DNA of 41,671 nucleotides, taken from assembly GCA_947624935.1 (NCBI GenBank), contig CANQML010000006.1, forward strand, positions 1-41,671, read 5' to 3'. Positions 599 to 25,231 of the stretch are shown here, piece after piece. The position numbers and the translations under genes were made by a program. Position 1 is the first letter of the stretch. Each line of letters begins with the position of its first letter. This stretch comes from Candidatus Gastranaerophilales bacterium. GTDB taxonomy: Bacteria > Cyanobacteriota > Vampirovibrionia > Gastranaerophilales > Gastranaerophilaceae. A model generated the notes under the pieces. That model had not been told where the DNA came from, made no database searches, and was given only the letters and a program-made list of their open reading frames with translations.

Positions 599-610
599 GG
601 GGGGGGGGGG
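599..610 (+). repeat. G12 homopolymer at the start of the prepilin gene (switch OFF)
   Basis: Twelve consecutive G lie 28 bases after the ATG at 571. With 12 G the ATG frame ends at a TAA at 628-630. The frame of the downstream prepilin is open all the way back to the tract (from base 611). Eleven or fourteen G would fuse the ATG to the prepilin frame. This is the arrangement expected of slipped-strand phase variation. Confidence 0.75.
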
Positions 611-664
611 TACGCTAAATATCCTCTAACCCAAGCAGATTACGACTTTTACCCTACACGTCAT

Positions 665-1588
665 TTGGCAAGCCACATACCACATAGAGTTTTGCGAATT
701 TGCCAATATATCATTGCGAGCGGAACGTCGCAATCGCAAAGTCATGGCGTCTCGCGTCATTGCGAGGAGGGCGAGCGTAGCGCAGCCCGACGCGGCAATC
801 CATTGAGCCTAATTAAAGTAAAGGACTTATTGACTTATTCACCTATTCACTTATTCACTTCAAAACGTGTTGCCTTCACCCTCGCCGAGGTTCTCGTCAC
901 ATTAGGCGTCATCGGCATCGTTGCCGCGATGACCATTCCTAATCTTGTTCAAAGTTATCAGGAAAAAGTCACTGTTGTAAAAGTCAAAAAAATATACAAC
1001 ACTTTATCTAATTCATATCAGCTGGCAATTTTAGATTACGATACAGCTGATAAATGGGAAATGACAAGAAGAAATGTTGATAGTGGAATACTTATGCGTA
1101 ACAGACTTTTAAAAAATGTAAAAACTGTTAAAGTTTGTAATAATCCAAAAGAACAAAAAGCTTGCGGTATTGCTGATGTTTATTATCTTTTTGATAAGAA
1201 AACAGTGGAGGAAGCAACTTCCGTTTTCAATGAGCGTGCTACAGTATCGGCATTACTTGCTGACGGCAGTACTGTTATGACTATTGTTAATGAAGGTGAA
1301 TCACGTGGCACGGGAGAGCTTTCTCATGTTTATGGGAATATATATTATGATGCAAACGGAATTAAACCGCCAAATGTTTATGGAAAAGATATGTTTATGT
1401 TTTACTTAACGGGAAACAGTATCATACCTTCCGGAACAACTAATGAAAATGAAAACTTCTATAAGTTTCCTAAAGGGTGTATTAATAAAGGGTATGGTTG
1501 TACTGCTTGGGTGATATATAGCGGTAATATGGACTACCTGCATTGTGATGACTTATCTTGGGAAGGTAAACATAAGTGTTCCGACTAA
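665..1588 (+). CDS. Type IV prepilin / pseudopilin-like protein, probably phase-variable
   Basis: The core is a class III N-methylation signature, VAFTLAEVLVTLGVIGIVAAM. Prepilin peptidase would cut before FTLAEV, leaving an N-terminal hydrophobic helix for membrane insertion and fibre packing. The remaining ~220 residues are a soluble domain with several Cys near the end, as in pseudopilins with disulfides. The listed start (TTG 665) is nominal. The frame is open from 611, and the likely true start is the ATG at 571, which is out of register because of the G12 tract. The sequence before the cleavage site is unusually long (~80 residues or more) and includes a translated dispersed repeat (711-803) and a low-complexity stretch. 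Product identity is good; start and ON/OFF state are inference. Confidence 0.75.
   Translation: MASHIPHRVLRICQYIIASGTSQSQSHGVSRHCEEGERSAARRGNPLSLIKVKDLLTYSPIHLFTSKRVAFTLAEVLVTLGVIGIVAAMTIPNLVQSYQEKVTVVKVKKIYNTLSNSYQLAILDYDTADKWEMTRRNVDSGILMRNRLLKNVKTVKVCNNPKEQKACGIADVYYLFDKKTVEEATSVFNERATVSALLADGSTVMTIVNEGESRGTGELSHVYGNIYYDANGIKPPNVYGKDMFMFYLTGNSIIPSGTTNENENFYKFPKGCINKGYGCTAWVIYSGNMDYLHCDDLSWEGKHKCSD
711..803 (+). repeat. GC-rich dispersed palindromic-type repeat inside the prepilin leader
   Basis: The sequence TCATTGCGAG occurs at 711-720 and 758-767, and the segment ends with a partly complementary GGCAATCCA. It is much more GC-rich than its surroundings. Its translation contains EEGERSAARRGNP, a peptide familiar from translated bacterial intergenic repeats. 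I read it as a dispersed repeat that has become part of the prepilin leader. Confidence 0.55.
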
Positions 1589-2493: not shown

Positions 2494-2844
2494 ATGGAAG
2501 TAAAAGATTTGCCGAAGTGTCCTGTTGAGGTTGCGCTGACAATTTTGAATACTAAATGGAAATTTTTGATTATAAGGGATTTATTGGAGGGAACAAAGCG
2601 GTTTGGCGAACTTAAAAAATCATTAAAACCGATTACGCAGAAGGTTTTGACGACAAATTTAAGAGATATGGAAGATATGGGGCTTGTTGAAAGAAAAGTT
2701 TACCGTCAATCACCGCCAAAAGTTGAATATACTTTGACGGACGTCGGCTACAGCCTTGCAGGGATATTGGATTCCATGGCAGATTGGGGCGCAGGGTTCA
2801 AAAAGTATCTTAAACTCGTCTCAAAAAGCCGCAACGAAAATTAA
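2494..2844 (+). CDS. HxlR-family winged-helix transcriptional regulator
   Basis: The product is 116 residues, typical of the family. It shows the HxlR pattern CPVEVALTILNTKWKFLIIR (Cys near the N-terminus), then FGELKKSLKPITQKVLTTNL (recognition helix) and YTLTDVGYSL (wing to C-terminal helix). HxlR proteins bind DNA as dimers and often sense aldehydes or redox stress through the conserved Cys. Here it follows ogt and may respond to alkylating or electrophile stress, but no target is shown. An AAAGGGG ribosome site precedes the ATG. The stop overlaps the 3' end of the convergent helicase gene by 4 bases. Confidence 0.88.
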   Translation: MEVKDLPKCPVEVALTILNTKWKFLIIRDLLEGTKRFGELKKSLKPITQKVLTTNLRDMEDMGLVERKVYRQSPPKVEYTLTDVGYSLAGILDSMADWGAGFKKYLKLVSKSRNEN

Positions 2845-5800
2845 TCTTCTATCAAAACTCTGTCTAAACAAGCTTTTGGTGAATATTTCCACTCTCTATA
2901 TGTTATGCGTTTAACCTTAAATCCGCAGCGTTCCAATATCGCCTGCTTTTTCATATTTGAAACGGTCGGACTTATATTATCTTCAAGCCCGTCAATTTCT
3001 ACAATGAATTTTTTATCCACCAACAAATCCGTACTTAAACCTGCAATGTCACACCCTGCTTGAACTTCATGCCCGAGCTCACGCATTTCGTTTGCAATTT
3101 CTTTTTCAAGGCTGTTTTTATATTCGTTTTCGTCTATTTGCAAGCTTTCAAGCGCATTTTGCTTATTTTGGTATTCTTTTATATAGGAAATATAATTTCT
3201 GAAATGTCCTTCGGGCAGATTTTCAATATCTCGTGAAACAAAATTTATAACTTTGTACCTTGCACGTGTAATTGCAACGTTAAAGAGGTTCGGTTTTTGC
3301 AAAAACGTAGCGCTTTGCGGTCTGCTGTTGTTTGCAAACGCCCACGACATAAGGATTACATCACGCTCATCGCCTTGGAATGTGTGTGCCGTACCGATTT
3401 CTATTTGATGTTTTCTTATCATGTGATCGGATAAAACTTTTGAAACAGAATTTTTGAGTTGGTCAACCTGCGCCCTAAAAGGTGAAATTATACCGATAGA
3501 AACAGGGTTATCAGGGTTTTTGCGCTCATCTTCTATTACAATTTCGTGAAGTTTTTTAATTACCGCCTCAACCTCGGGCAAATTGCGGGTTACGTCAAAA
3601 TCGACTTTGCCGTCGGGCACTTCTACAAGCTCTAAAACCTTTTCATTGCCAAAATCCTTTTTCATAACCCGAATTCTTCCGCCGTAAAATTCGTCGTTTG
3701 AAAAATTAATAATAGGCGGCAAACTTCTGAAATGCTCATCAAGCATAACGGAGTTCATCGAGTAATAATCTGCCAAATCAAACATGGAATTTGTTCTGAA
3801 CCGCCACATAAGCTGATATTTGTCAGGGATGCCGTACTGGCTCAAAAACGACTGTTCTTTAGCTTTTTCCAAGAACGACAAATGCGGAAGCTGTTTGTCA
3901 TCACCCACGATTACCGCACGTTTTGCCCTGAACATTACAGGGAAACAGCTTGCTATATCGCATTGTGACGCCTCATCAATAATTGCGACGTCAAACATGC
4001 CCGGTTTCATGGGCAAAGACCCCGAAATTGCATAAGTTGTAACGCACCAGCAGGGAAATGCCTCCAAAAGCGGTTTAAAATCTTCTTCTTCCAAAATTCT
4101 GTTTTGAAGATTTTTTCTGCGCTCGGTGAGCGATTTTGCATGCACAATAAGCCTTTGGCGCTTGATTTGGTCACGCAAAAGCCCTTTTAAAGATTCTCTG
4201 CGGCGGTTTTTCAAAATGTTTATTGCAAGATTTTTTTGCTTGCGTTTTAACTGCCTGATTTGCTCAGTCAAAACGTGTAAATTTCCAGTTTTTTGAATTT
4301 CGGCTTCGGTTTTTCTCAATTTCCAATTCATATTTGAAACTTCAAGCTCGGCACTTAACCTTGAAAGATTATCATAAGTAACCTCAAAATCCTTTATTTT
4401 TAAGATTTTTTTGAGTTTTCCAAGACTCATAAAGTTTGCAAAATTTGCAAAAAATCCCGCTTTTTCAATGTTGTTTTCCAAAGTTTTGATTATACTTGAA
4501 ACAGTGTCTATTTCGGATTTTTTAAGAGTTGTTTTGATAAATAATGCTTCACCCAAAGCTTTTTCGGAGTTTTGGGTTTCCAAAGACATATCATGCCAGT
4601 CTTTTTCAAGTTTTATAATATGTTCGCACTTGTTTTCCGCATCTTTTATAAGGTTCAAATGCTCTTTCATGTCTTTTACATCCACAAGCATGCTGTCCTC
4701 AAAGCCGCTGTCCAAATCGACTTTACCCGAATACAAATCCTGAAGTTGAAAACTCAACTGCTTTTGGTAGTTTAATCTTCCTGCACGAAGTGCTAAAAAC
4801 GGCGCACCAAGCTCGTTTAATCTTTCGGCAACAACGTCAACGGCTTTGTCCATACGTGATGCAACAAGAACAGTTTTGCCGTTTGCAATCAAGTGTGCTG
4901 CAAGGTTAACTATTGTTTGCGATTTGCCCGTTCCGGGAGGTCCTTGCACCGCTATAAACTTGTTATTATCAATATTTTTAATTACTTTTTCCTGCGAATC
5001 ACTTAATGACAAAGGTGTTACGGGGTAAAAATCCGTAACTTCTTTCATATCCTTAATCGGAACGGATTTTTCTTTCGATTGGATATATTCGTCATTTATA
5101 ATGCTTAAAGCGGTTTCTCTGTAAATTCCGCTCGGTTTTTCGGCGATTTGGGTTAATTCGTGCAATACCCCCGCCGTCACCGCCGGACGTTTGGTCAAAA
5201 TTATCGCACTCTGGTAAGTTACAACAACTTTATCAAGCTTTATTGAAGACTTTTGCGCCGCTTCTTCTTCCTCGATTATTTCGTCCAAGTTTTCGGAATT
5301 GATTTTTTCTTTGTAAAAATCGGTGTCTTTTGAAACGTTATCTTCCGCCTCGGTTTCGGTCATACTGATTTCAACTTCGGGAATAACCGATTGCAGAGTG
5401 GTTAAAAATATGTCAAGTTTTTCTTTTGTAATCGGCAAATCGGGCACAACATCCAAAATACCTTCCAAAAGTAAATCAACTTCGTCTTCATCATCGTTTT
5501 TCTTCATTAATGCGGCAAGTGCGCCCGTATTCAACGACAAGATTTCATCTTGCGGAATGCAGTTTATGTTCACGCCGTTTCTTTCCAATTTACACGGAAG
5601 ATACAAAAGCGGGGTTAAAAACTCGTTGTATTTCTTGCTTTTATTGTTTTTTCCGACCAAAAACATATAGCCGTAAATTAGGTATTTATCTTTTGTACTT
5701 AATTCGCTTTGAATCATTAATTCGGTCAGTTTGCTGTCCGAGCCGTCAAGTTTAAGGTATTCTTCGGCATTTGTCAATAAAGTTTCTTCGCCTTGCAGGA

Positions 5801-5951
5801 AAATCCATTTGTTATCTTTGTCGGCTTTTAAGTTTCTGAAAGTCGAGCTTTTAACTTCTTCTCTTACGCAATCGTGAAGATATTGGCTCAATTTCTTTAT
5901 AAAACTGTTGTTAAATGCCGAATTTATGGCTTTTGTAGCTTCTTGTAACAT
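2841..5951 (-). CDS. Large SF1 (DNA2/NAM7/UPF1-like) helicase with C-terminal endonuclease-like domain
   Basis: The product is 1,036 residues. Walker A is GPPGTGKSQT (~residue 336). Walker B is AIIDEASQCD (~657), followed by GDDKQLPH. Later motifs are TAHTFQGDERDVIL and FNVAITRARYKV. A charged coiled-coil-like insert (~430-630) separates motifs I and II, as in UPF1-like enzymes. The last ~90 residues (EMRELGHEVQAGCDIAGLSTDLLVD, then FIVEIDG and KRITYREW) resemble a Vsr/DUF559-like PD-(D/E)XK fold. The enzyme is expected to unwind nucleic acid in an ATP-dependent manner, with possible cleavage. It is convergent with HxlR and divergent from the CCA-type gene. Precise substrate is unknown; involvement in repair or defence is inference. 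Confidence 0.82.
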   Translation of the reverse strand: MLQEATKAINSAFNNSFIKKLSQYLHDCVREEVKSSTFRNLKADKDNKWIFLQGEETLLTNAEEYLKLDGSDSKLTELMIQSELSTKDKYLIYGYMFLVGKNNKSKKYNEFLTPLLYLPCKLERNGVNINCIPQDEILSLNTGALAALMKKNDDEDEVDLLLEGILDVVPDLPITKEKLDIFLTTLQSVIPEVEISMTETEAEDNVSKDTDFYKEKINSENLDEIIEEEEAAQKSSIKLDKVVVTYQSAIILTKRPAVTAGVLHELTQIAEKPSGIYRETALSIINDEYIQSKEKSVPIKDMKEVTDFYPVTPLSLSDSQEKVIKNIDNNKFIAVQGPPGTGKSQTIVNLAAHLIANGKTVLVASRMDKAVDVVAERLNELGAPFLALRAGRLNYQKQLSFQLQDLYSGKVDLDSGFEDSMLVDVKDMKEHLNLIKDAENKCEHIIKLEKDWHDMSLETQNSEKALGEALFIKTTLKKSEIDTVSSIIKTLENNIEKAGFFANFANFMSLGKLKKILKIKDFEVTYDNLSRLSAELEVSNMNWKLRKTEAEIQKTGNLHVLTEQIRQLKRKQKNLAINILKNRRRESLKGLLRDQIKRQRLIVHAKSLTERRKNLQNRILEEEDFKPLLEAFPCWCVTTYAISGSLPMKPGMFDVAIIDEASQCDIASCFPVMFRAKRAVIVGDDKQLPHLSFLEKAKEQSFLSQYGIPDKYQLMWRFRTNSMFDLADYYSMNSVMLDEHFRSLPPIINFSNDEFYGGRIRVMKKDFGNEKVLELVEVPDGKVDFDVTRNLPEVEAVIKKLHEIVIEDERKNPDNPVSIGIISPFRAQVDQLKNSVSKVLSDHMIRKHQIEIGTAHTFQGDERDVILMSWAFANNSRPQSATFLQKPNLFNVAITRARYKVINFVSRDIENLPEGHFRNYISYIKEYQNKQNALESLQIDENEYKNSLEKEIANEMRELGHEVQAGCDIAGLSTDLLVDKKFIVEIDGLEDNISPTVSNMKKQAILERCGFKVKRITYREWKYSPKACLDRVLIED

Positions 5952-8097: not shown

Positions 8098-11000
8098 TTA
8101 TATCAAATCCAATTTACATAAATTCTTGTAAGCACACTTTTCACATTTTGCTTTATCCTCTTTTACAGGGTCAAATTGGAATGCATTTATCTTGTCATAT
8201 ACCGACTTAATCAGATTTTCTATATAATCCATATCTTCTTGCGTCAAAATTTTATAAACATTTTTACCGTGATTTTCGACATAAATCAAGCCTGCTCGAG
8301 CAACTTTTTTGCCCGTTGCTTTTTCAAAAGCGTATTTATAAAAACAAAGCTGGTTAAAATAATTTTCTTTATCTTGTCCTACAGCCACTTTTGTTTCACT
8401 GACAGGCATTCCCGTTTTGTAATCATACAGCTCATAAGTTCCGTCAGCATTTTTCTCAATCCTGTCAATTTTGCCTGTTATAGCATATTCACCTACATTT
8501 ACACCGTCAAATACATACTCAACCGTATCAACTCTTTCAATCGGAATTGAAGCAAAATGAGGATAATAGTGCTTAATTACCCTTATCCCGTTCTTTTCAA
8601 ATTTCTCTTTAACCGCAAGCGAAGAAAACTTTGTATCGTCAAGCTCTTTTTTAAATTGTGCCGATATTTCCTCCAATTTGGGATACTCACCCTTTTCTTT
8701 TGCCTTTCTTACAGCTTTTTCCAATAACCCGTGGATTAATGAACCAAAATTTGCATTATCCCAATTATTTTCTTCCACATCTATCGCCAAAACTTTTAAA
8801 TAAAAGAATTTTCTCGGACAATCCAAATAATCATTCAATCTGCTCGGTGATAATACTACCTTTTTAACTCTCTGCTCTATTTCATCCTGAAAAGCTTTTC
8901 TGTTATCATAAACCTCTCGTGAAATACTCCTTACAAATTCTTTTGTGAAATCTTCACTGTTATACTCAAATCGCTGACTGTCAAAATCATAGTCAATAAA
9001 CTTTGAAAGATACTTCGTTATCTGCTGGGGTTTGTTATCGCACATGTCAGAAAATGACAGGCACAGAAAATGTTTTGCTCTGGTTATACCGACAAATAAC
9101 AGCTTTATTAATTCAGTGTCTTTTCTTTGTTCAGCATCATCATAAATAGGGTCTGTAACAAGTTTGTATTCCGTTGGCATTCTGAAATTTTCCCAATTTT
9201 TGGAAATTAAATTCGGTAAATAAACATATTCAAATTCTCGACCTTTTGAACCGTGATAAGTTGTTAATTGAACGGCATTTTGGATTAAGCTGTCTTTATC
9301 AAGACAGATATCTATATCATTTTGCAAACATTCATCCAAATATTCCACAAAATCATTAAGCCCCGCAGCTACATTAACATTGGAAAACTCCGTTGCAACC
9401 GATATTACTTTCTGTATCCCGAGCAAATTCTCCATACGAGCGCTCTCTGTTTTGAAATAATATTCCAATATCCCCGTGGCATTAATAATTTCTATTATCG
9501 TATTTCTTAAATCATTCGCCGTTGAATACTTTTGCAAATAGAAAAATGTATCCAAAAAATTCTTTATCTTTTCAGGATTTTCCCAATTATCCAAAGTCTG
9601 CATTATTGAAATGAAATCGTTATCTTTTTTTAGTAATCTTTTTTCCTGCAAAATTTTATTGTAATCCCTCAAATCAATTTTAAACGGCTCTGACAAAATT
9701 AGCCCGAATAATTTGTCACTTGACATAAGATAATTATTCAAAGCTTTCAGATAAAAATAAATTACTATTGAAGATTTTATTGAAAAAATACTTTTGCCCT
9801 CATCAATTTGAAAAGGAATATTGCGGGCTTTTAAAAGTTCGGCAAAAGTTTGCAATTCCTGACGGTTTTTACAAATTACGGCAATTTGCGATAACTCGCT
9901 CGGGCAATTCGTCGATTTTACAAGTTTTTCTATATCATCTACGATATGATTAAATTCTTGTAACACATCACCAAATTGCAGTCTTTTTATTTTTTTATCC
10001 TTTTTTATAACCTCTTCAGACTTTGCTGTCAACCTTTTGGAAATCCCTTTTGATACAAATTTTTCATTGTTTTCCAATCGGGATTTATCTTGATTGATAA
10101 CCTCATAACTAAAATCCAAAATTGATTGAGTTGAGCGGTTGCTTTCCTCCAAACAAATCACCTGAGTTTGGGGATATCTTGTCAAAAAAGTTTCAATATT
10201 ATCTGACTTTGCGCCTTGAAATCCGTATATAATTTGATCATCATCACCAACAACCAAAATGTTTTTGTATTCGTTTGCATCTATCAAATTAAAAATAATC
10301 TCGTTTTGCAGCTCATTTGTATCCTGATATTCATCAACCAAAAAATACTTGTACTTGCCCGAAACTTCTTTCAAAAAAGTTATATCTTCTTCAAACGCAT
10401 TAAGAACAAGAATAATCATATCGGAAAAATCAATCAGACTTAAAGCACGCATTTTTTCTGAATACAACTCAAATAAAGTCCAAAGCTCCTGTGCTTTTTT
10501 AATATTAGCCTTTATCTTGTCAAGCTCGGCATAACGCATTTTATTTTGGGTTTTACCTTTGGCTTCTCTATCGTGTATTTCTTCTTCAAGTTCCTTTATT
10601 CTCGGCATCAAAGTCGGATTTGTTTCAAAAGCTTTGTAATATTCTTCTTTAGTTACTCTGCGCAATTTTAATTTTTCAATATGCGATATAAAATCTTTTG
10701 CAAAATAGTATTTATCGGCACGATTTGGCACAAAATATTTTAAATCTGCCTCATCAATACAGTCTTTCATTATTTTTATTTTTTCGGTTTCAGTAATTAA
10801 TCTGACATTGGCGCTTAAAGAAAACTGATTGGGATAAAGCTTTATTATATCGTTGCAAAAAGAATGGTACGTATAAATATCAACGCCGGAAGCTATTACT
10901 CCGAGTTTTTTTATCAACCGCCCTCTCATTTCATTGGCTGCCGCATCGGAAAAAGTTAAACATAATATAGCATCAGGCTCAATCCCTTCTTTTAGCATTT

Positions 11001-11121
11001 TTTCTATTCTTCTGACTATGGTAAAAGTTTTGCCCGTTCCGGGGCCTGCCAAAAGCATTATTTGCCCGCTAAAATTATTAATAGCTTGTAATTGTTTCGC
11101 ATTCGGTTCTTTTTCTTCCAT
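8098..11121 (-). CDS. UvrD/PcrA-type helicase fused to a Cas4/AddB-like PD-(D/E)XK nuclease
   Basis: The product is 1,007 residues. SF1A helicase motifs appear in order: LLAGPGTGKTFT (~residue 26), CLTFSDAAANEM, FLVDEYQDTNELQ (~residue 262), GDDDQIIYGFQGA, TTYHGSKGREFEYVYLP and FVGITRAKHFL (~680). The C-terminal third is a RecB-type nuclease: DYLDCPRKFFYL, GKIDRIEKN and YELYDYKTG. One Cys in CPRK plus CEKCAYKNLC at the end matches the four-Cys iron-sulfur staple of AddB, AdnB and Cas4. It should process double-strand breaks or degrade foreign DNA. No AddAB partner is visible nearby. It is convergent with the repeat-protein gene. Confidence 0.88.
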   Translation of the reverse strand: MEEKEPNAKQLQAINNFSGQIMLLAGPGTGKTFTIVRRIEKMLKEGIEPDAILCLTFSDAAANEMRGRLIKKLGVIASGVDIYTYHSFCNDIIKLYPNQFSLSANVRLITETEKIKIMKDCIDEADLKYFVPNRADKYYFAKDFISHIEKLKLRRVTKEEYYKAFETNPTLMPRIKELEEEIHDREAKGKTQNKMRYAELDKIKANIKKAQELWTLFELYSEKMRALSLIDFSDMIILVLNAFEEDITFLKEVSGKYKYFLVDEYQDTNELQNEIIFNLIDANEYKNILVVGDDDQIIYGFQGAKSDNIETFLTRYPQTQVICLEESNRSTQSILDFSYEVINQDKSRLENNEKFVSKGISKRLTAKSEEVIKKDKKIKRLQFGDVLQEFNHIVDDIEKLVKSTNCPSELSQIAVICKNRQELQTFAELLKARNIPFQIDEGKSIFSIKSSIVIYFYLKALNNYLMSSDKLFGLILSEPFKIDLRDYNKILQEKRLLKKDNDFISIMQTLDNWENPEKIKNFLDTFFYLQKYSTANDLRNTIIEIINATGILEYYFKTESARMENLLGIQKVISVATEFSNVNVAAGLNDFVEYLDECLQNDIDICLDKDSLIQNAVQLTTYHGSKGREFEYVYLPNLISKNWENFRMPTEYKLVTDPIYDDAEQRKDTELIKLLFVGITRAKHFLCLSFSDMCDNKPQQITKYLSKFIDYDFDSQRFEYNSEDFTKEFVRSISREVYDNRKAFQDEIEQRVKKVVLSPSRLNDYLDCPRKFFYLKVLAIDVEENNWDNANFGSLIHGLLEKAVRKAKEKGEYPKLEEISAQFKKELDDTKFSSLAVKEKFEKNGIRVIKHYYPHFASIPIERVDTVEYVFDGVNVGEYAITGKIDRIEKNADGTYELYDYKTGMPVSETKVAVGQDKENYFNQLCFYKYAFEKATGKKVARAGLIYVENHGKNVYKILTQEDMDYIENLIKSVYDKINAFQFDPVKEDKAKCEKCAYKNLCKLDLI

Positions 11122-13017: not shown

Positions 13018-13046
13018 TTGACAATGATATAAATCTATTTTAAAAT
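13018..13046 (+). promoter_or_regulatory. Promoter of the four-gene phase-variable unit
   Basis: TTGACA (13018-13023), 17 bases, TAAAAT (13041-13046), one mismatch from consensus overall. The ATG of the TPP enzyme is 34 bases further. No other good promoter is seen before 17966, so all four genes may form one transcript. Confidence 0.7.
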
Positions 13047-13080: not shown

Positions 13081-14817
13081 ATGAGTATTTTATCGAATAT
13101 TTTTTCTGTAAAAAATGAATATTTAGGCAATAAGAAACGAAAAGTAATTCGTGTAATGGGTGTAAAATTCAAGCTTAAAGCACAAAAGTTACCTGTTTAT
13201 AGAACAGTAAACTATATAATTCAAATGTTAAAAGAATACGGAGTTAAAAATATTATATCCTCTCCGGGGGCACAAAATTCAATGTTTAATCTCCTTGTTC
13301 AGGATGATGAGTATTTTAATTGTTATTCCGTAACAGATGAGAGAAGTGCTGCTTATATGGCGCTTGGAATGGCAGAAGAGTTAAATGAACCCGTTGTAAT
13401 AACATGTACCGGCTCAACTGCAAGCAGAAACTGGATTCCCGCATTAACTGAAGCTTATTATAAAAATATTCCCATTATTGCCATGCCGTTTTATAACAGA
13501 TTAAGCAATGAATTTAATCTGGCTGCCCAATATACAAACAGAAAAATTACCCATTCCGATATCAAATCTATACAGGTTAAACTGCCTGAAATAGCTGATG
13601 AAGTTGATAAAAAACAAGTTTTAACATACATAAATACTGCTCTTGCAACGGCTAAATTCATGCATAAACCTGTGATAATTGAAAGTCCATCTAACTTATT
13701 TTTTAATGATATTAATGATTTTAAATATTTTCCGAAGGATGTTTGGCATACACAAGTAATCGAAGAAATTACAAATGAAGAAGAAAATTTTGCTGATAAG
13801 AATACGGCAATATTTATAGGTTCGCATGGAAAATTTTCTCAAGAGGAAGAAAATGCAATATCAGAATTTGCAAAAAGCTGGAATATTCCCGTATTTTGCG
13901 ATCATACTTCAAGTTATCACGGGGCTAATAAAATATTAACTGCCAAAAGTATTATTTGCAGGATAAATTTACCCGATTTAATAATAGATATAGGCGGAGT
14001 GACCGGAGATTATTTTGTAGGCGGACTATTTGCGAAATGTTTAATCTACAGAGTAACCCCCCCCCTGTGTGAGCATACCTTTAAATTCAGATTTGATAAA
14101 CCTGTTGTTAAAACTTTTATAATGCCTGAAAAATTGTTTTTTCAAAAATATAAAAACAAGTCTGATATTTCTAAAAATTATTATGAAGAAGTTAAAAATA
14201 CAATTGAAAATACAACTTATCCTGAGCTGCCTTTATGCAATTACCTGATAGTTCAAAATTTATCAAAATATATTCCCGAAGGAAGTATTTTGCATCATGG
14301 GGTATCAAATACAAAAAGAGGTATGAACTATTATGACTTCTCGGAAAGTATTGATACAAGCTGTAATGTGGGGGTTTGCGGAATTGACGGGGCTGTTTCA
14401 ACACTTGTTGGTCATTCTCTTGCGGCACCTGATAAAAAAGTTTTCGGCATAATGGGTGATTTAACATTTTTTTATGATATGAGTGTATTACAAAACAGGG
14501 ATATAAAAAATAATTTAAGAATTATACTTATTAATAACAATAAGGGAGTCGAGTTTAAAGTAGGAAATATGTTCCCTAACGTGGCAACCGAACCGTTAAT
14601 AGGCGCCGCTTATCATCATACTACCGCAAACGGATGGGCTCAAAGCTGCGGATTTCATTATATGAGCGCAAATACTAAAGAAGATTTCTTAGCTCAAATA
14701 AAAGATTTTTGTACCAAAGACTTCGATAAACCCGTTATGTTTGAAGTATTTACAAAAGATGAAGATGAAATTAATGCTTTCACATCTATGATAAATATCA
14801 ACAATGAACAAAAGTAA
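13081..14817 (+). CDS. MenD-like thiamine-pyrophosphate enzyme with internal C9 tract
   Basis: The product is 578 residues. The N-terminal domain has the MenD-type SPGAQNS loop, the TPP-activating Glu in TDERSAAYMALG, and a variant CTGSTASRNWIPALTEAYY segment. The C-terminal TPP/Mg domain has GIDGAVSTLVGHSLA and GIMGDLTFFYDMSVLQN with a later NNNKG. It probably performs a carboligation or decarboxylation. The first ~35 residues add a basic extension ending in VIRVMGVKFKLK, related to motifs in neighbouring proteins. The context (ATP-grasp, SDRs, no menaquinone genes) points to glycan building rather than menaquinone. A run of nine C (14057-14065, residues ~326-328) is in register; a change of one would remove the TPP-binding domain. 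Confidence 0.75.
   Translation: MSILSNIFSVKNEYLGNKKRKVIRVMGVKFKLKAQKLPVYRTVNYIIQMLKEYGVKNIISSPGAQNSMFNLLVQDDEYFNCYSVTDERSAAYMALGMAEELNEPVVITCTGSTASRNWIPALTEAYYKNIPIIAMPFYNRLSNEFNLAAQYTNRKITHSDIKSIQVKLPEIADEVDKKQVLTYINTALATAKFMHKPVIIESPSNLFFNDINDFKYFPKDVWHTQVIEEITNEEENFADKNTAIFIGSHGKFSQEEENAISEFAKSWNIPVFCDHTSSYHGANKILTAKSIICRINLPDLIIDIGGVTGDYFVGGLFAKCLIYRVTPPLCEHTFKFRFDKPVVKTFIMPEKLFFQKYKNKSDISKNYYEEVKNTIENTTYPELPLCNYLIVQNLSKYIPEGSILHHGVSNTKRGMNYYDFSESIDTSCNVGVCGIDGAVSTLVGHSLAAPDKKVFGIMGDLTFFYDMSVLQNRDIKNNLRIILINNNKGVEFKVGNMFPNVATEPLIGAAYHHTTANGWAQSCGFHYMSANTKEDFLAQIKDFCTKDFDKPVMFEVFTKDEDEINAFTSMININNEQK
14057..14065 (+). repeat. C9 homopolymer inside the TPP-enzyme gene (switch ON)
   Basis: Nine C read as Thr-Pro-Pro in frame at about residue 326 of 578. 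Gain or loss of one base would frameshift and delete the cofactor-binding C-terminal domain. Confidence 0.6.
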
Positions 14818-14837
14818 ATTAATTAAAGGGAGATTTT

Positions 14838-15977
14838 ATGAAAAATGTACTATTATCAATTAAAAAAGATAACGAAAAATTATTAATATATCTGTTGGGC
14901 ATAAAAATTAAATTTAGTAATAAGTATAAAAAAATAGACGATAGACTTAATATATGTGAAAGAATGATACAAGACATATATTATGGAAGTCGTTTTGTAT
15001 ACACACACGGAAATAACTTTTCAACATCAGAATTCAAAAGAATTTGTGCAGATAAATTTTATCATTTAATGGGTTACTATCCTAATTTGAATAATCCCCA
15101 AACCTTTAATGAAAAAATAAATTGGCTGAAATATCATTATCATAATCCTGTTGAAAATTATTGTTGTGATAAATATACAGCTAAAAAGTATTTTTCTGAT
15201 AAAGTAGGTCCCCGATACGTTGTACCACTGCTTGGCATGTGGGAAGATGTAAATGATATTGATTTTGATAAATTACCCAATCAAGTTGTATTCAAAAATA
15301 CTCTAAGTGGCGGGCATACAGGAGTTAAGATTGTAAAAGATTTAAGTCGGGAGCCTATTGATAAACTCAAATACGAATTAAATAAACTGTTATTTGAATG
15401 GAAGAATGACGGTTATTCAGCCGGTATTATGCCTAAACGTAAACTTATTAAAGAAAGATTGATAGCTGAAAAATACCTTGCTGAAATTGATTCCGGGATT
15501 GGTGATTATAAATTTTTCTGTTTTCATGGCAAACCAAAATTTTTGTATGTAGCTGCGTATGATGAACAAAATAACTGCACAATGTTATTTTATGACCTTG
15601 ATTGGAACATACAGCCGTTTTATAATGTTTTTTATAAACCAATTGAAAAAAATATTCCCAAACCTAAAAATTTTGAAAAAATGATTGAAATCGCAGAAAA
15701 ATTGGCACAAGATTTTCCGTTTGTCAGAGTAGATTTATATAATATTGACGGGGAAATATACGTCGGAGAATTAACCTTTAATCCGACAGGCGGATTTATA
15801 AAATTTAATGAAAAAAAATATGATTATGAACTTGGAGAAATGTTGGATTTAACTAAAATTGATAAAAAGCATTTAACCAATGATATAGTTAAAACCCTTA
15901 CCCAATCAAGTATAGAAGCCCACCAGGGGGGGGGGGTGATACATGCTAAGGTTAATCGATTCAAAAAAGCAGCATAA
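14838..15977 (+). CDS. TupA-like ATP-grasp protein of a surface-glycan locus, with G11 tract near its end
   Basis: The product is 379 residues. It matches the TupA-type ATP-grasp family, often annotated as glycosyltransferase in capsule or teichuronopeptide loci: FNEKINWLKYH, CDKYTAKKY, VVFKNTLSGGHTG (nucleotide loop), the KERLIAEKYL lysine strand, DYKFFCFHGKP, and the metal-binding FVRVDLYNIDG plus GELTFNPTGG. It should form an amide or ester bond using ATP on a polysaccharide precursor. The N-terminus carries LLIYLLGIKIKF, similar to its neighbours. A run of 11 G (15926-15936) is in register and affects only the last ~15 residues. AAAGGGAG precedes the ATG. Confidence 0.82.
   Translation: MKNVLLSIKKDNEKLLIYLLGIKIKFSNKYKKIDDRLNICERMIQDIYYGSRFVYTHGNNFSTSEFKRICADKFYHLMGYYPNLNNPQTFNEKINWLKYHYHNPVENYCCDKYTAKKYFSDKVGPRYVVPLLGMWEDVNDIDFDKLPNQVVFKNTLSGGHTGVKIVKDLSREPIDKLKYELNKLLFEWKNDGYSAGIMPKRKLIKERLIAEKYLAEIDSGIGDYKFFCFHGKPKFLYVAAYDEQNNCTMLFYDLDWNIQPFYNVFYKPIEKNIPKPKNFEKMIEIAEKLAQDFPFVRVDLYNIDGEIYVGELTFNPTGGFIKFNEKKYDYELGEMLDLTKIDKKHLTNDIVKTLTQSSIEAHQGGGVIHAKVNRFKKAA
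15926..15936 (+). repeat. G11 homopolymer near the 3' end of the ATP-grasp gene
   Basis: With 11 G the protein ends GGGVIHAKVNRFKKAA at 15977. With 10 G the codon after the tract becomes TGA, so the protein ends at HQGGG. With 12 G it would end four residues after the tract (GDTC). The tract thus sets the C-terminal tail and how close the stop lies to the next gene. Confidence 0.6.
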
Positions 15978-15996
15978 ATTATCGGAAAAGAATAAA

Positions 15997-16929
15997 ATGG
16001 AAAAAATTAACAGAGAAAAAATAAAAACTTGGTTTGTAACAGGAGCATCGTCAGGCTTTGGGAAAGAAATATGCACTCAATTATTGCAAAGAGGTTACAA
16101 TGTAATTGCCGTGGCAAGAAGAATCCCCGATTTTATACATAAAAATGCCCTATGTCTTTCAGTTGACGTAACAAATGCAGATTCTGTTGCGGCAGCTGTT
16201 AAAAAGGGGATTGAAAAATTCGGAAAAATTGATGTTCTTTCAAATAATGCCGGAGTCAGTGCCGCAATAACTGCGGAAGAAGAATCTTTGGAACATATGA
16301 AAGAAGTTATGAATACTAACTTCTTTGGTACTTTTAATACCGTAAATAAGTTACTCCCCCATTTCAGAGAAAATAAAAACGGAACTATCATAAATAACAC
16401 ATCTCAATCAGGGGTTTCTCCAAGACTTTACGGTAGTGCCTATTGTTCTTCAAAATATGCTATTGAAGGTTTTACCTCGGTTTTAAGAATGGAAACACAT
16501 GCTTTTTGCAGAGTTATGGCGTTTGAATTAAGTTTCTTCCCCGGAACGGAAATTGGGAAAACACGTAAAACCATTGTAACAGAAATTGAAGAATATAAAC
16601 AAGGAAATACCATACCCCCCCCCACTGTGCACCTACATGAGAATAATTTTAAAAATACGGTTGCGATTATAATTGATACGGTAGAAAATAAAAAATTACC
16701 CAGACATCTTCTGTTGGGTAAAGAAGCACCGATTAGAGCAGGGATAGAAGTTGGTGTTATGCAAGAATCTATTAAATATTCTTTAAAACATGCTAAAAAA
16801 AGTTATAAGGACTTGTATAAAATCAGTTTTAAAAAGAAACTGTTTTCTAAACAAAAAGAATTTTACGGAGATAAGATTTATAGAATTTTTTATATTTTAG
16901 GAATTAAAATAAAAATTAGAAAAAAATAA
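15997..16929 (+). CDS. Short-chain dehydrogenase/reductase, first tandem copy, with C9 tract
   Basis: The product is 310 residues from ATG 15997. Classical SDR motifs are present: VTGASSGFGKE (NAD(P) binding), NNAGVS, and the active-site Ser (NNTSQSG) with YCSSK (Tyr-x3-Lys). The tail ends RIFYILGIKIKIRKK, a motif also seen at the N-termini of the two preceding proteins. I chose ATG 15997 because it aligns residue for residue with the start of the second SDR; an in-frame ATG at 15943 lies within the ATP-grasp gene. A run of nine C (16615-16623, residues ~207-209) is in register. It probably reduces or epimerises a sugar or polyol intermediate. Confidence 0.85.
   Translation: MEKINREKIKTWFVTGASSGFGKEICTQLLQRGYNVIAVARRIPDFIHKNALCLSVDVTNADSVAAAVKKGIEKFGKIDVLSNNAGVSAAITAEEESLEHMKEVMNTNFFGTFNTVNKLLPHFRENKNGTIINNTSQSGVSPRLYGSAYCSSKYAIEGFTSVLRMETHAFCRVMAFELSFFPGTEIGKTRKTIVTEIEEYKQGNTIPPPTVHLHENNFKNTVAIIIDTVENKKLPRHLLLGKEAPIRAGIEVGVMQESIKYSLKHAKKSYKDLYKISFKKKLFSKQKEFYGDKIYRIFYILGIKIKIRKK
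16615..16623 (+). repeat. C9 homopolymer in the first SDR gene (switch ON)
   Basis: Nine C encode Pro-Pro-Pro in a surface-loop position (TIPPPTVH). The tandem paralogue has no such run here, so it is not needed for the fold. A one-base slip would cut the last third of the protein. Confidence 0.6.
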
Positions 16930-16958
16930 GAGTATTTTTAATTAAGGATTAACATAAA

Positions 16959-17966
16959 TTGAAAAAAACAGATAAAAATAAAATTAAAAATTGGTTTGTA
17001 ACTGGGGCTTCAAGCGGTATTGGGCATGAATTATGCGTCCAATTATTAAAAAGAGGATACAACGTAACAGCAGTTTCAAGAAAAATCCCTGAGTTTACAG
17101 GGGGGGGGGGGCGTTTACTAGGTCTTAGTGTTGACGTTACCAAACCTGATACTATAAACTCTGCTATTCAAAAAACGATTGAAAAATTTGGAAGTATTGA
17201 TGTTCTTGCGAATATCGCAGGTATTTCTTCTTATGAAACTTTTGAAGAAACATCCGATGAAGAAGTCCGAAATGTAATGGAAACAAACTACTGGGGGACA
17301 TATAATACCTGCAAGGCCCTTATTAAATATTTCAGAGAAAGAAACAACGGAACAATAATAAATTGTACCTCTGTTATAGGACTTGTTCCAAGAACCTTCG
17401 GATGCGCTTATTCTTCTTCCAAACACGCTATAGAAGGTCTTACATCCGTTTTATATTTGGAAACCCAAAATTTTAACTGCAGGGTTATGTGCGTTGAACC
17501 GGGATTATATCCTTCAAATATAGGTAAAAATAAAAAATCTTTTGAAACTGAATTTAGTGAATATATTTTCCCAAACAGCCAAATAATTAATTTAGAACGA
17601 AATTACAAAAATGATTTAACAATAGCAGTAAACTGCATAATAGATACCGTTGAAAACGAAAAACTTCCGCGCCGTCTTTTATTGGGGAAAGACTGCATAA
17701 AAAGAGTTAAATATGAAGTACATTCAATTTTAGAAAATATTAAATATTCTAACGTTATTTCAAGTAAAATTGCAAAAACTTGCGATGGAAAAAATTATAC
17801 AATATTTACTGATATAAGCTTTTTTTGCAAAAAGATTCCATTCTTTATTAATTACATAAGATGTTCTATTCTGGAAAAAATAGTAAGAAAAAATAAAAAA
17901 CCTCACTATAAAAATAAAAAAGAAATGTTAAAAAACAAATTTGCAAAAACTTGGTTAAAAAAATAA
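16959..17966 (+). CDS. Short-chain dehydrogenase/reductase, second tandem copy, with G12 tract
   Basis: The product is 335 residues. The motifs are VTGASSGIGHE, ANIAGIS (variant of NNAG), and NCTSVIG with YSSSK as catalytic residues. It is clearly homologous to the preceding SDR along its length, so the pair arose by tandem duplication. The C-terminal ~70 residues are longer and very basic. The start is TTG at 16959 with AAGGA 10 bases before it. A run of 12 G (17100-17111) encodes GGGG at residues ~48-51, where the paralogue has unrelated residues. It is in register; a slip would stop translation early and abolish the enzyme. Confidence 0.85.
   Translation: MKKTDKNKIKNWFVTGASSGIGHELCVQLLKRGYNVTAVSRKIPEFTGGGGRLLGLSVDVTKPDTINSAIQKTIEKFGSIDVLANIAGISSYETFEETSDEEVRNVMETNYWGTYNTCKALIKYFRERNNGTIINCTSVIGLVPRTFGCAYSSSKHAIEGLTSVLYLETQNFNCRVMCVEPGLYPSNIGKNKKSFETEFSEYIFPNSQIINLERNYKNDLTIAVNCIIDTVENEKLPRRLLLGKDCIKRVKYEVHSILENIKYSNVISSKIAKTCDGKNYTIFTDISFFCKKIPFFINYIRCSILEKIVRKNKKPHYKNKKEMLKNKFAKTWLKK
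17100..17111 (+). repeat. G12 homopolymer in the second SDR gene (switch ON)
   Basis: Twelve G lie between the second and third beta strands of the Rossmann fold (EFTGGGGRLLGLSV). It is among the longest tracts in the window and the one whose slippage would be most damaging, because it is near the N-terminus. Confidence 0.65.
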
Positions 17967-21738: not shown

Positions 21739-22064
21739 ATGCGTAAAGCGAATTGCAAACATAGTGCGAAGCGTAGGCACGTTTAACACGAGCAAGCAGA
21801 ATTAAAAAGACAGCTTGAATTACTTGAGCAAAAAATGTCAAAAAGCCCAAATAATATGAATAATGGCGGAAGTCATTTTCTGTATCGCAGAGAAAGAATG
21901 ATACGTTTCAAAATGCTTCAAAAAAATATGCCGCAAAAAATGCTTGAAAAAGATTAAACCTGACCGAAAGCTATATCTCAAAACTCATCACCGGCGAACA
22001 CTATAACCAAGATTTTGAAAGATATATTATCCATATTTTAAATGTAAATTATTGTTGTATTTAA
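21739..22064 (+). pseudogene. Decayed small HTH-like gene (in-frame stop and frameshift)
   Basis: An AGGAG ribosome site (21729-21733) precedes ATG 21739. The frame meets TAA at 21784 after 15 codons, then continues in the same frame to 21957 (helix-rich, QAELKRQLELLEQKMSK, ending MLQKNMPQKMLEKD). From 21957 a shifted frame reads NLTESYISKLITGEHYNQDF to 22064, a Cro-like helix-turn-helix pattern. The pieces look like one small regulator broken by a stop and a frameshift. The last bases overlap the 3' end of the KAP gene on the other strand. Confidence 0.45.
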
Positions 22065-25000
22065 TTTGTATATATTTCATTCATTTTTGTTCTTAAATTA
22101 CTATTGATATTATTCAATCTCAATAGAACAGCTTCTTGAAAATCTTTTACATCTATAGAATTATCATTTAATAACGATACTAAATTGCAAGCAAAATCAT
22201 ATTCTGTAGGTTCTTGGCTATCTTCTAACAGCATACTTACTATATTTTTGAATAGTTCTTCATTTATACTAAATGATTCGGAATTTATTACGTTTACTAT
22301 ATTGGAATAAATACTAACAGATTTTGTTGCTTCCAGTTCATTATATATATAATTTAAAATAGGTGTTAAAAACAATTTGTTAAACTGTTTTTTAGTTAGA
22401 ATATTGCTGGCAATTTGTAAATATCTAATCCCGCTTTTTGGATCCTTTTTGTACGCTTCAATTGTTTTATTTTTTATAGATGTAAAATCTTTTTCTAAGA
22501 TTTTTATATTGTTATTATTTAATAACTCATATAAAGAGAATATTTTTTCTATATTATCGGCATTATAATATTTTGATAAAATATAATCTTTAAATTTTTC
22601 TTTATTTATTTTTATGTTATCCTTTGTTATTACCTCTAATAAAGTTTTTAAATCATCCATTGAATTGTCATCTTCACGAAGTAATTGCGGATACATTTCG
22701 CTGATTGATTCTTTAATAAGGTCATATATTGAACGTTTAATTTTAGCTATTCCAAACAAGAAATGTTTTGAATTATTGTATTGTATGATATTTTTAACAT
22801 GCGATTGGTAATTATTATCGATTAATATATTAATAAAAGCATTTTGATTATCAATTGGCATTAAATGAGTCCTTAAGATGCTTTCATAATTGGTATCGGT
22901 TTCATTTGTAACAAAAAACATTGCCTCAACTAACAAGTCCATTGCTACTTTTGGTTTATATTGAAATAAATTATTTATAAACTGAAACAGCGCAGTATTA
23001 AAACTATTTACCATGTTTTCTTCAAAAGAATTTTTATCAATAAGTTTTAACGATAAATTAATTCCATTTAACAAACTTATTTTACTTGAATAATTTGATA
23101 CAACCGAACGTATTTCAGTAATTATCCCATTAAGTTTATTTGCAAGTTTTCCTTTACATTTAGGATTAAGAGATAATCTATCATAATATTTTAAACAATT
23201 TATAGCATTATCCGAAAAAGTATCTTTTGATATTGTATCGATGACAAAATTTATAAATGTTGTAGGCACTAATGACAATTGACCTTTATTATATAATATT
23301 TCTATGTATTTTTGTATGGATTCATCTATCTGAGAAATATTTTTAAAATCCATAAATACAGAAGATATATGTGTTTTGTCAAAAATATTAAAGTTATTTG
23401 TTAATTTATCAAAAAGCAAAATTTTTGAATCATGACTTAAAATGGTTTCATTTCCGAGTTTATCATCTTCTTTATTTATTTTTAAATATTTTGCAAGAAT
23501 ATCTCTTATTGTAGAACCTTGTTTTTCGCGCATTTGAGGAATGTAAGAAATAAATCTATCTAATTCTTCAAAAATACTCTCCAAAAAATTGACAAAGTTT
23601 ATAATATCTGATGATAGAATATCACCTAAAATTCTAATCAATTCATTTGCATTCTTTTCATCTAACTTCTTATTATCAAGAGATTTAAATATTACAATAG
23701 AAGCATTCTGTAAGTATATAGATTCAGTATTATCAAGCATTTGTTGTACTTCTGTTTTTATTCTGTTAACAACATTTTTATTAATATCATCTATAAAATA
23801 TCCATCCTTAAGTTCCATTGAAATCGCTTTTGCATCAATCGTTTCTTTTAAATATATAAATGGCATAAGAGAGGGCATTACATTTGGAAGCAGGTTTTTA
23901 ATTCTATTAATAAATAATTTGTAGTCCTCATTATCAATATTTTTAGAAAATAAGTCCGGATCTTTTATTAACAGTTCTTCAATGGTATTCCATTTTTGTT
24001 TAATGACAATCATAATGGCAAATAAAGTTATATTATTTAGTAAAAATCTATGTTCAGGGTCTATATTTTCTGCAAGTACATAATTTATAGAAAAATCATT
24101 TATAAATCTTTTAATTTGTCTTGGTGTTGAACCTTTATACCCATAGAAAAGGACTTGTTTAATTTCATTAATATTTTTTTCTAAATTAGGATATATTGAA
24201 AGTTCTTTTAATTGTTCTTCAATAAAGACATCACGGTCAATTTCTTGTAATTGAGGGATTCTGATGTATGTATTGAATAACTTGTCAAAAAATTCTTCGC
24301 CGATTGCTTGAGAAAAACTATCTTTATTTTCTTTAGCTGTAATATTATAACTTGCAATTATATATTTTTTTATAGCAATATCATCACAAGGTATAATGTA
24401 CAGACAATTTTTCTTATCCATGAATGTTTTTATGGCTGATAAAGTTTCATAAGCATATTTTGGTTCGCATCTGTCAAGATTATCAAAAACAATTAAAATC
24501 TTTTTTCCTTCTGATGAAATATTTGTTACAATATCTGAAAATATGCTTTCAAATTGTTCAGGTGAGAAAGTTGGCTTATAAGTGTATGTTTTAATTTTTT
24601 TACTACAAAAAATGGATTTCGTTAAATGTAAGAGTTGCTCTTTCAAAACTCCAATAAGAATTAATGGTGCACTAACAAATCCTAATCCGGAAAATATTGG
24701 AACTGATAGAGATTTTATCCATTCATTGCCAAAGTGATAACAAATAATTGAAATTATTGCTACAAGCAAAGCTGTGAATATTAATAGTCGTATTGTTGGC
24801 AAAAGTTTTTTACCTATTTCATCCCATTTCAAATCTATTTCTTCTTTAACATCCGTCTCAGCATATAACAATTTTTCAAGGGAGTTGTCATTTTTGTCAA
24901 CATATCCTTTATCATATATGCCAAGCTTTTTAGTTTTTAATTGTACATCAATATCAAACAAGATACTTCTCATTAATGGATGTCCAACATATTTCCAAAC

Positions 25001-25231
25001 ATCAATATAAAATACGGCATAACTATTTTCTAATCTGTCTTTTACTTGATTGACGATATAACTTTTTCCACTTCCCCAAGAACCAAATAATCCTAAATTA
25101 AATGAACAATCCTTAAGTTCTTCGTTATTTGCAATATCTACGATTGTATCAGCTATTTTTGAATGTATGCCAAAACTATCTTTGACAGTTTTTATATTGT
25201 TTGAATCATGTAAAAATAAAGTTTTTGCCAT
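22061..25231 (-). CDS. KAP-family P-loop NTPase with two transmembrane segments
   Basis: The product is 1,056 residues. Walker A is LGLFGSWGSGKS (~residue 48). Two hydrophobic helices follow (~145-165 and ~172-195) between Walker A and Walker B, the hallmark arrangement of KAP NTPases. Walker B is KKILIVFDNLDRCEP (~residue 246), followed by a sensor region CLYIIPCDD. The remaining ~700 residues are helical and repetitive in character without a known motif. KAP NTPases are membrane-bound ATPases; some act in phage exclusion (PifA). Placement between island relics and near Fic supports a defence role, as inference. Codon use is strongly AT-biased. Confidence 0.85.
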   Translation of the reverse strand: MAKTLFLHDSNNIKTVKDSFGIHSKIADTIVDIANNEELKDCSFNLGLFGSWGSGKSYIVNQVKDRLENSYAVFYIDVWKYVGHPLMRSILFDIDVQLKTKKLGIYDKGYVDKNDNSLEKLLYAETDVKEEIDLKWDEIGKKLLPTIRLLIFTALLVAIISIICYHFGNEWIKSLSVPIFSGLGFVSAPLILIGVLKEQLLHLTKSIFCSKKIKTYTYKPTFSPEQFESIFSDIVTNISSEGKKILIVFDNLDRCEPKYAYETLSAIKTFMDKKNCLYIIPCDDIAIKKYIIASYNITAKENKDSFSQAIGEEFFDKLFNTYIRIPQLQEIDRDVFIEEQLKELSIYPNLEKNINEIKQVLFYGYKGSTPRQIKRFINDFSINYVLAENIDPEHRFLLNNITLFAIMIVIKQKWNTIEELLIKDPDLFSKNIDNEDYKLFINRIKNLLPNVMPSLMPFIYLKETIDAKAISMELKDGYFIDDINKNVVNRIKTEVQQMLDNTESIYLQNASIVIFKSLDNKKLDEKNANELIRILGDILSSDIINFVNFLESIFEELDRFISYIPQMREKQGSTIRDILAKYLKINKEDDKLGNETILSHDSKILLFDKLTNNFNIFDKTHISSVFMDFKNISQIDESIQKYIEILYNKGQLSLVPTTFINFVIDTISKDTFSDNAINCLKYYDRLSLNPKCKGKLANKLNGIITEIRSVVSNYSSKISLLNGINLSLKLIDKNSFEENMVNSFNTALFQFINNLFQYKPKVAMDLLVEAMFFVTNETDTNYESILRTHLMPIDNQNAFINILIDNNYQSHVKNIIQYNNSKHFLFGIAKIKRSIYDLIKESISEMYPQLLREDDNSMDDLKTLLEVITKDNIKINKEKFKDYILSKYYNADNIEKIFSLYELLNNNNIKILEKDFTSIKNKTIEAYKKDPKSGIRYLQIASNILTKKQFNKLFLTPILNYIYNELEATKSVSIYSNIVNVINSESFSINEELFKNIVSMLLEDSQEPTEYDFACNLVSLLNDNSIDVKDFQEAVLLRLNNINSNLRTKMNEIYTN

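Follow-up and report, generated by a model that had tools for sequence, protein, structure and literature searches.

In the 41,671-nt stretch of DNA analysed here (the window; A+T 67%, numbered from its first letter), four consecutive plus-strand genes encode a TPP-dependent enzyme, an ATP-grasp protein and two short-chain dehydrogenases (SDR1 and SDR2), and each of them carries one long run of G or C (Table 1). A run scan of the window found these runs, C9, G11, C9 and G12, exactly where the first-pass annotation had reported them. The intergenic gaps measure about 20–30 bases, and the best promoter-like match on the coding strand lies directly before the first gene. Short gaps and a promoter-like site just upstream make it likely that the four genes form a single transcription unit, and since they have this one site in common they may vary non-independently.

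Table 1. Features of the window, and two examples of the promoter-leader-tract repeat.
Feature	Position	Strand	Remarks
G12 in prepilin-like gene leader	599..610	+	OFF at 12, ON at 11 or 14
Prepilin-like protein body	611..1588	+	Out of frame with own leader in the assembly
Promoter-like site TTGACA-N17-TAAAAT	13018..13046	+	11/12 consensus bases; consensus match only
TPP-dependent enzyme, MenD-like, 578 aa	13081..14817	+	In frame (ON)
C9 in TPP gene	14057..14065	+	−1/+1 base gives 346/330 aa (range 330–347)
TupA-like ATP-grasp protein, 379 aa	14838..15977	+	PF14305
G11 in ATP-grasp C-terminal tail	15926..15936	+	Residue ~363 of 379; length change gives 366–380 aa
SDR1, short-chain dehydrogenase, 310 aa	15997..16929	+	ORF open from 15943; likely start ATG 15997
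C9 in SDR1 C-terminal third	16615..16623	+	−1/+1 base gives 224/214 aa (range 213–225)
SDR2, short-chain dehydrogenase, 335 aa	16959..17966	+	TTG start
G12 in SDR2, on inserted Gly loop	17100..17111	+	−1/+1 base gives 53/56 aa
Promoter-leader-tract repeat, example	L009:1941-1952		
Promoter-leader-tract repeat, example	L064:452-462		

Tracts in the window

G/C runs of at least 9 bases number five in the window against a first-order expectation of about 0.016, and none appeared in simulated windows (Markov models of orders 1, 2 and 3, with 60 simulations per order), which bears out the earlier judgement that such runs are improbable by chance. The fifth run, G12 at 599–610, belongs to a prepilin-like gene and lies in its leader. 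A/T runs of at least 9 bases occur just once, despite the A+T content. A borderline tract, C8 (sense-strand G8) at 34619–34626, lies at about codon 50 of a minus-strand gene for a 3109-aa protein with weak LysM and HD matches.

All four genes of the unit are in frame in the assembly and none was seen OFF. A one-base slip would destroy SDR2 and the TPP enzyme, the latter because the shifted frame removes the C-terminal TPP domain, and a change of length in the SDR1 tract would probably inactivate that protein. The G11 of the ATP-grasp gene is placed beyond the point at which homologues stop (about residue 338–350), in a non-conserved tail that a slip would shorten by only 9–13 residues; as the domain is predicted to stay intact whatever the length, this tract would be neither an ON/OFF switch nor a means of knock-out. 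Its length may instead alter the coupling of SDR1 translation to the end of the ATP-grasp gene, a few bases upstream. The proposal of an independent switch in every gene, giving 16 states, is not supported in that form, since the ATP-grasp tail is only changed and SDR1 loses just its C-terminal third; three plausible switches (SDR2, TPP enzyme and probably SDR1) are predicted rather than four.

The TPP and SDR2 tracts sit on insertions that most homologues are without. The TPP C9 encodes part of an insertion of 1–3 residues relative to all seven homologues compared, none of which has a run at this site, including a 69% orthologue from another genus. A short motif of the LGIKIK type is shared by the ATP-grasp N-terminus (14880–14920) and the SDR1 C-terminus (16860–16926), and a stretch resembling it is found also in the TPP N-terminus (window 13081–13200), the first 35–40 residues of which match otherwise unrelated frames in relatives.

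Tracts across the genome

Pattern searches of the assembly from which the window comes (2.2 Mb in 181 contigs) returned 85 runs of at least 10 bases, matched together with the base before them, and a further 16 with a length of exactly 9. From stretches around nearly all tracts and the window itself, about 101 G/C runs of 9–13 bases were obtained (17 of 9, 16 of 10, 34 of 11, 31 of 12 and 3 of 13), and the tracts are thus no peculiarity of the four-gene unit, as they had first seemed to be. Their lengths are bimodal: in 276 kb of own-genome stretches, which were chosen for holding tracts so that the total is biased, there are 20 runs of 6, none of 7 or 8, and then 15, 16, 33, 29 and 3 runs at 9 to 13 (96 in all). 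That choice does not account for the gap at 7–8. Up to length 6 the G/C counts drop smoothly, and A/T runs in the same 276 kb decay smoothly to 10.

The reading frames are mixed. A tally by hand from open frames covered the coding tracts, 47 in number, that do not belong to the promoter-leader repeat (groups 2 and 3 below: prepilin leaders, and enzymes and surface proteins), and counted 23 as in frame and 24 as out of frame; exact lengths from a short-read assembly can err by one base, which affects single ON/OFF calls and leaves the overall mix unaffected. Out-of-frame genes include those for Acyl_transf_3, GT2, a polysaccharide pyruvyl transferase and an epimerase, and among the loci are C60:4857, C50:11077 and window 599. 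These observations bear on the reading that the tracts are tolerated poly-Pro or poly-Gly coding loops, kept in frame by selection and without any switching. The unit itself would suit such a reading, with four genes in frame, TPP and SDR2 tracts in insertion-tolerant loops and the ATP-grasp tract in a non-conserved tail, but across the genome out-of-frame tracts make up about half of those in coding sequence, and a bimodal distribution with a gap at 7–8, for which A/T runs provide no parallel excess, makes this reading very unlikely.

Tracts coincide with breaks in the assembly as well, 12 of the 96 lying no more than 20 bases from a contig end, where 0.3% would be expected (an excess of about 38-fold). 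Some are situated exactly at contig ends, the assembly was probably made from a metagenome, and Illumina trouble at G-tracts is on record (PMC9187656), all of which could point to an assembly or sequencing artefact, such as poly-G of two-colour Illumina chemistry, by which contigs were joined or padded. Such an origin is extremely unlikely, since internal tracts lie between unique flanking sequences and code for residues in frame, an independently assembled genome of another genus has a tract at the corresponding SDR2 position, and the sampled genomes of other families of the order do not show the phenomenon. Near-identical copies may differ in length, as at C56 (G9) and C40 (G10), the flanks of which are 98% identical over 120 bases. 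The contig ends C48 (G12) and C68 (G11), which share flanks, were considered as one locus in two lengths and left uncounted because the flank resembles a dispersed repeat.

Genes associated with the tracts

Prepilin-like genes are the largest group among the tract-bearing loci. Group 1 consists of about 32 copies of a repeat in which TTGACA-N17-TATAAT is followed by a short ORF, beginning at about the expected transcript start, with C10–13 at codon 17–18; where the retrieved sequence extends far enough, a prepilin-like gene is often found 200–950 bases downstream. A role of the repeat as a simple fusion leader for prepilins is not supported, as only one of twelve copies with a visible FTLAE motif is open from tract to prepilin. 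Group 2 comprises eleven prepilin-like genes with a tract about 10 codons past the start, one of them cut by a contig end and another being the gene with the G12 at 599–610 of the window. Their leaders are near-identical and yet the G counts are 9, 9, 10, 11, 11, 11, 12, 12, 12 and 13, and among the ten readable genes only the three with G11 are open.

RNA polymerase is also prone to slip on long runs, and slippage by RNA polymerase or the ribosome on a fixed tract could make a mixture of products, so that out-of-frame genes would still be expressed at a low level. In its favour, approximately half of the tract genes would otherwise be off, and it can coexist with phase variation. As the explanation of the tracts it is nonetheless unlikely, because leaders of paralogues differ in the DNA itself (9–13) between nearly equal flanks and contigs break at tracts, both of which point to variation or difficulty at the DNA level.

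Group 3 contains genes for Acyl_transf_3, GT2, GT-like proteins, polysaccharide pyruvyl transferase, epimerases, hexapeptide transferases, UbiA-like proteins, a BREX-1-type PglX and POMP-repeat adhesins. In three tandem acyltransferase genes (L052:4857-7264) a G12 immediately follows the start codon, and none of the three is in frame. The PglX methyltransferase gene has an in-frame G10 (L017:2052-2061), and its open frame stops at profile position 899 of 1210. Tracts at the extreme end of genes are a further variant, exemplified by two hexapeptide transferase genes (L063:3572-3583 and L063:4347-4357); tail tracts recur in hexapeptide transferases and one epimerase of this genome. At L063:4347-4357 the frame downstream of the tract stays open as far as the following gene, and some lengths would fuse both. 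It may be speculated that end-of-gene tracts act otherwise than by switching, for instance by exchanging tails, by fusing genes or by linking a gene to the one that follows.

Distribution and apparent turnover in relatives

Most of 36 genomes of the same family contain about 10–115 G/C runs of at least 9 bases (range 0–115), whereas 23 genomes from other families of the order and class contain 0–6. A G-tract of at least 9 followed within 30 bases by the prepilin motif FTxAE was detected in 40 of 146 genomes of the family, representing 16 of 41 genera, counted per register of the pattern and not per tract, and a reversed control pattern gave 0 among the genomes listed. In one family genome (G111, scaffold C1) gaps (NN) are enclosed by two G runs just ahead of prepilin genes, as though assembly had broken down at the tract.

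Individual tracts seem quick to turn over, as the same-genus orthologue of the UbiA-like gene (C35), found in one species, is without the tract. For the TPP and ATP-grasp genes no orthologue from the same genus was found. In the comparison of lengths among relatives that the first-pass annotation had suggested, an SDR2 orthologue, from the other genus that also has the 69% TPP orthologue, has an in-frame G8 in place of G12. The TPP and SDR1 tracts are conserved in none of the homologues found and could therefore be recent and short-lived. In the same genome as this SDR2 orthologue a second SDR adjoining a TPP gene (L110) has G9 at a different codon, out of frame, and a TupA-like ATP-grasp gene of another genus has G12 in its C-terminal tail (L218:1477-1488).

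Probable phase variation by slipped-strand mispairing

The runs are very likely simple-sequence contingency tracts which undergo replication slippage and cause phase variation, a reading supported mainly by evidence from the whole genome. Bimodal lengths, out-of-frame genes in about half of the cases, unlike paralogues, contig breaks and enrichment in the family speak for this part of the original proposal, against which stands the ON state of all four genes in the unit. Tracts, frames, length differences between paralogues, OFF alleles elsewhere in the genome and occurrence across the family are observed; we infer the slippage, its rate and its effect on a surface glycan. The polymerase would slip on 9–12 identical G or C bases during replication, gaining or losing one base and thereby shifting the reading frame, so that cells of one population would differ randomly and reversibly in the genes that are read through to the end. 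Slippage would in this way abolish SDR2 and the TPP enzyme and probably inactivate SDR1, while in the G11 it would reshape only the ATP-grasp tail or the coupling to SDR1. The four-gene unit would make up only a small share of the roughly 100 tracts in this genome; others lie in genes for acyltransferases, glycosyltransferases, epimerases, adhesins and PglX and, most often, in or before prepilin-like genes. Two of the four tracts in the unit are merely C9, the low end of the length range. MutS1 and MutL are present above cut-off in the genome itself and in nearly all relatives; loss of mismatch repair is thereby ruled out as the cause, and lower slippage rates are to be expected.

Most known cases of homopolymer phase variation come from mucosal pathogens. 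The present family possibly belongs to the gut Gastranaerophilales, non-photosynthetic relatives of the Cyanobacteria. The best named enolase hit, at 65%, is to an 'uncultured cyanobacterium', with Desulfovibrio and others close behind, and the prepilin type fits that group; named genomes scanned with the TPP protein gave no match, and no 16S was found in the genome, so that this placement is a lead. The poly-G/C phasome of Campylobacter is alike in having G/C homopolymers of similar length inside genes for surface structures, and in C. jejuni the median number of phase-variable tracts is 20 per genome when runs of at least 7 are counted (PMC6321876). Here there are about 101 at the stricter cut-off of at least 9, approximately five times that median, and prepilin-like genes are the largest group. 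C. jejuni is not known to have MutS/MutL mismatch repair, whereas mutS and mutL are present here, which sets this genome apart from a mismatch-repair-deficient phasome. In the gut commensal Bifidobacterium breve an intragenic G11/G12 tract controls sortase-pilus genes, of which there are two clusters, by deciding whether translation continues into the next reading frame (PMC9187656). The present genome differs from it in the many type IV prepilin-like paralogues and the glycan-type genes. The opa genes of Neisseria, about a dozen paralogues for outer-membrane proteins with pentanucleotide repeats in the leader-coding part, are similar in having a repeat tract in the leader of many paralogues and mixed ON/OFF states, but here the tracts are of a single base and the proteins prepilin-like. 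The pglX of Streptomyces is phase-variable through a G-tract, and the in-frame G10 described above is in a BREX-1-type PglX of a different lineage.

In the collection of papers searched, none connects Gastranaerophilales to phase variation or homopolymeric tracts to Melainabacteria, and searches with broader terms showed none either, in agreement with the first-pass annotation, which knew of no such description. The mechanism is already known; what is new is its scale, in a little-studied lineage without a report found and with enrichment across much of one family. We give about even credence to the proposition that the homopolymer phasome of this family ranks among the largest known, and that tens of its prepilin-like genes each lie downstream of a G/C tract that slips, in some cases by way of a promoter-leader-tract cassette, so that the set of pilins and glycans would differ from cell to cell. 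If the tracts slip, this would offer a directly testable explanation for differences among cells in pili and glycans, for evasion of phages and of host immunity, and for the poor assembly of these genomes.

Possible glycan role and surroundings of the unit

The designation of the four genes as surface-glycan genes is plausible: homologous TPP-SDR pairs in relatives lie near genes for polysaccharide pyruvyl transferases, a GT2 and a MatE/Polysacc_synt flippase. These neighbours support a role of the unit in a glycan, but the unit itself is without a glycosyltransferase gene. The unit is flanked by genes for a helicase-nuclease (2841–5951), a UvrD/Cas4-like protein (8098–11121) and a KAP NTPase with a weak QatA match (22061–25231), and the flanking region is possibly one of phage defence.
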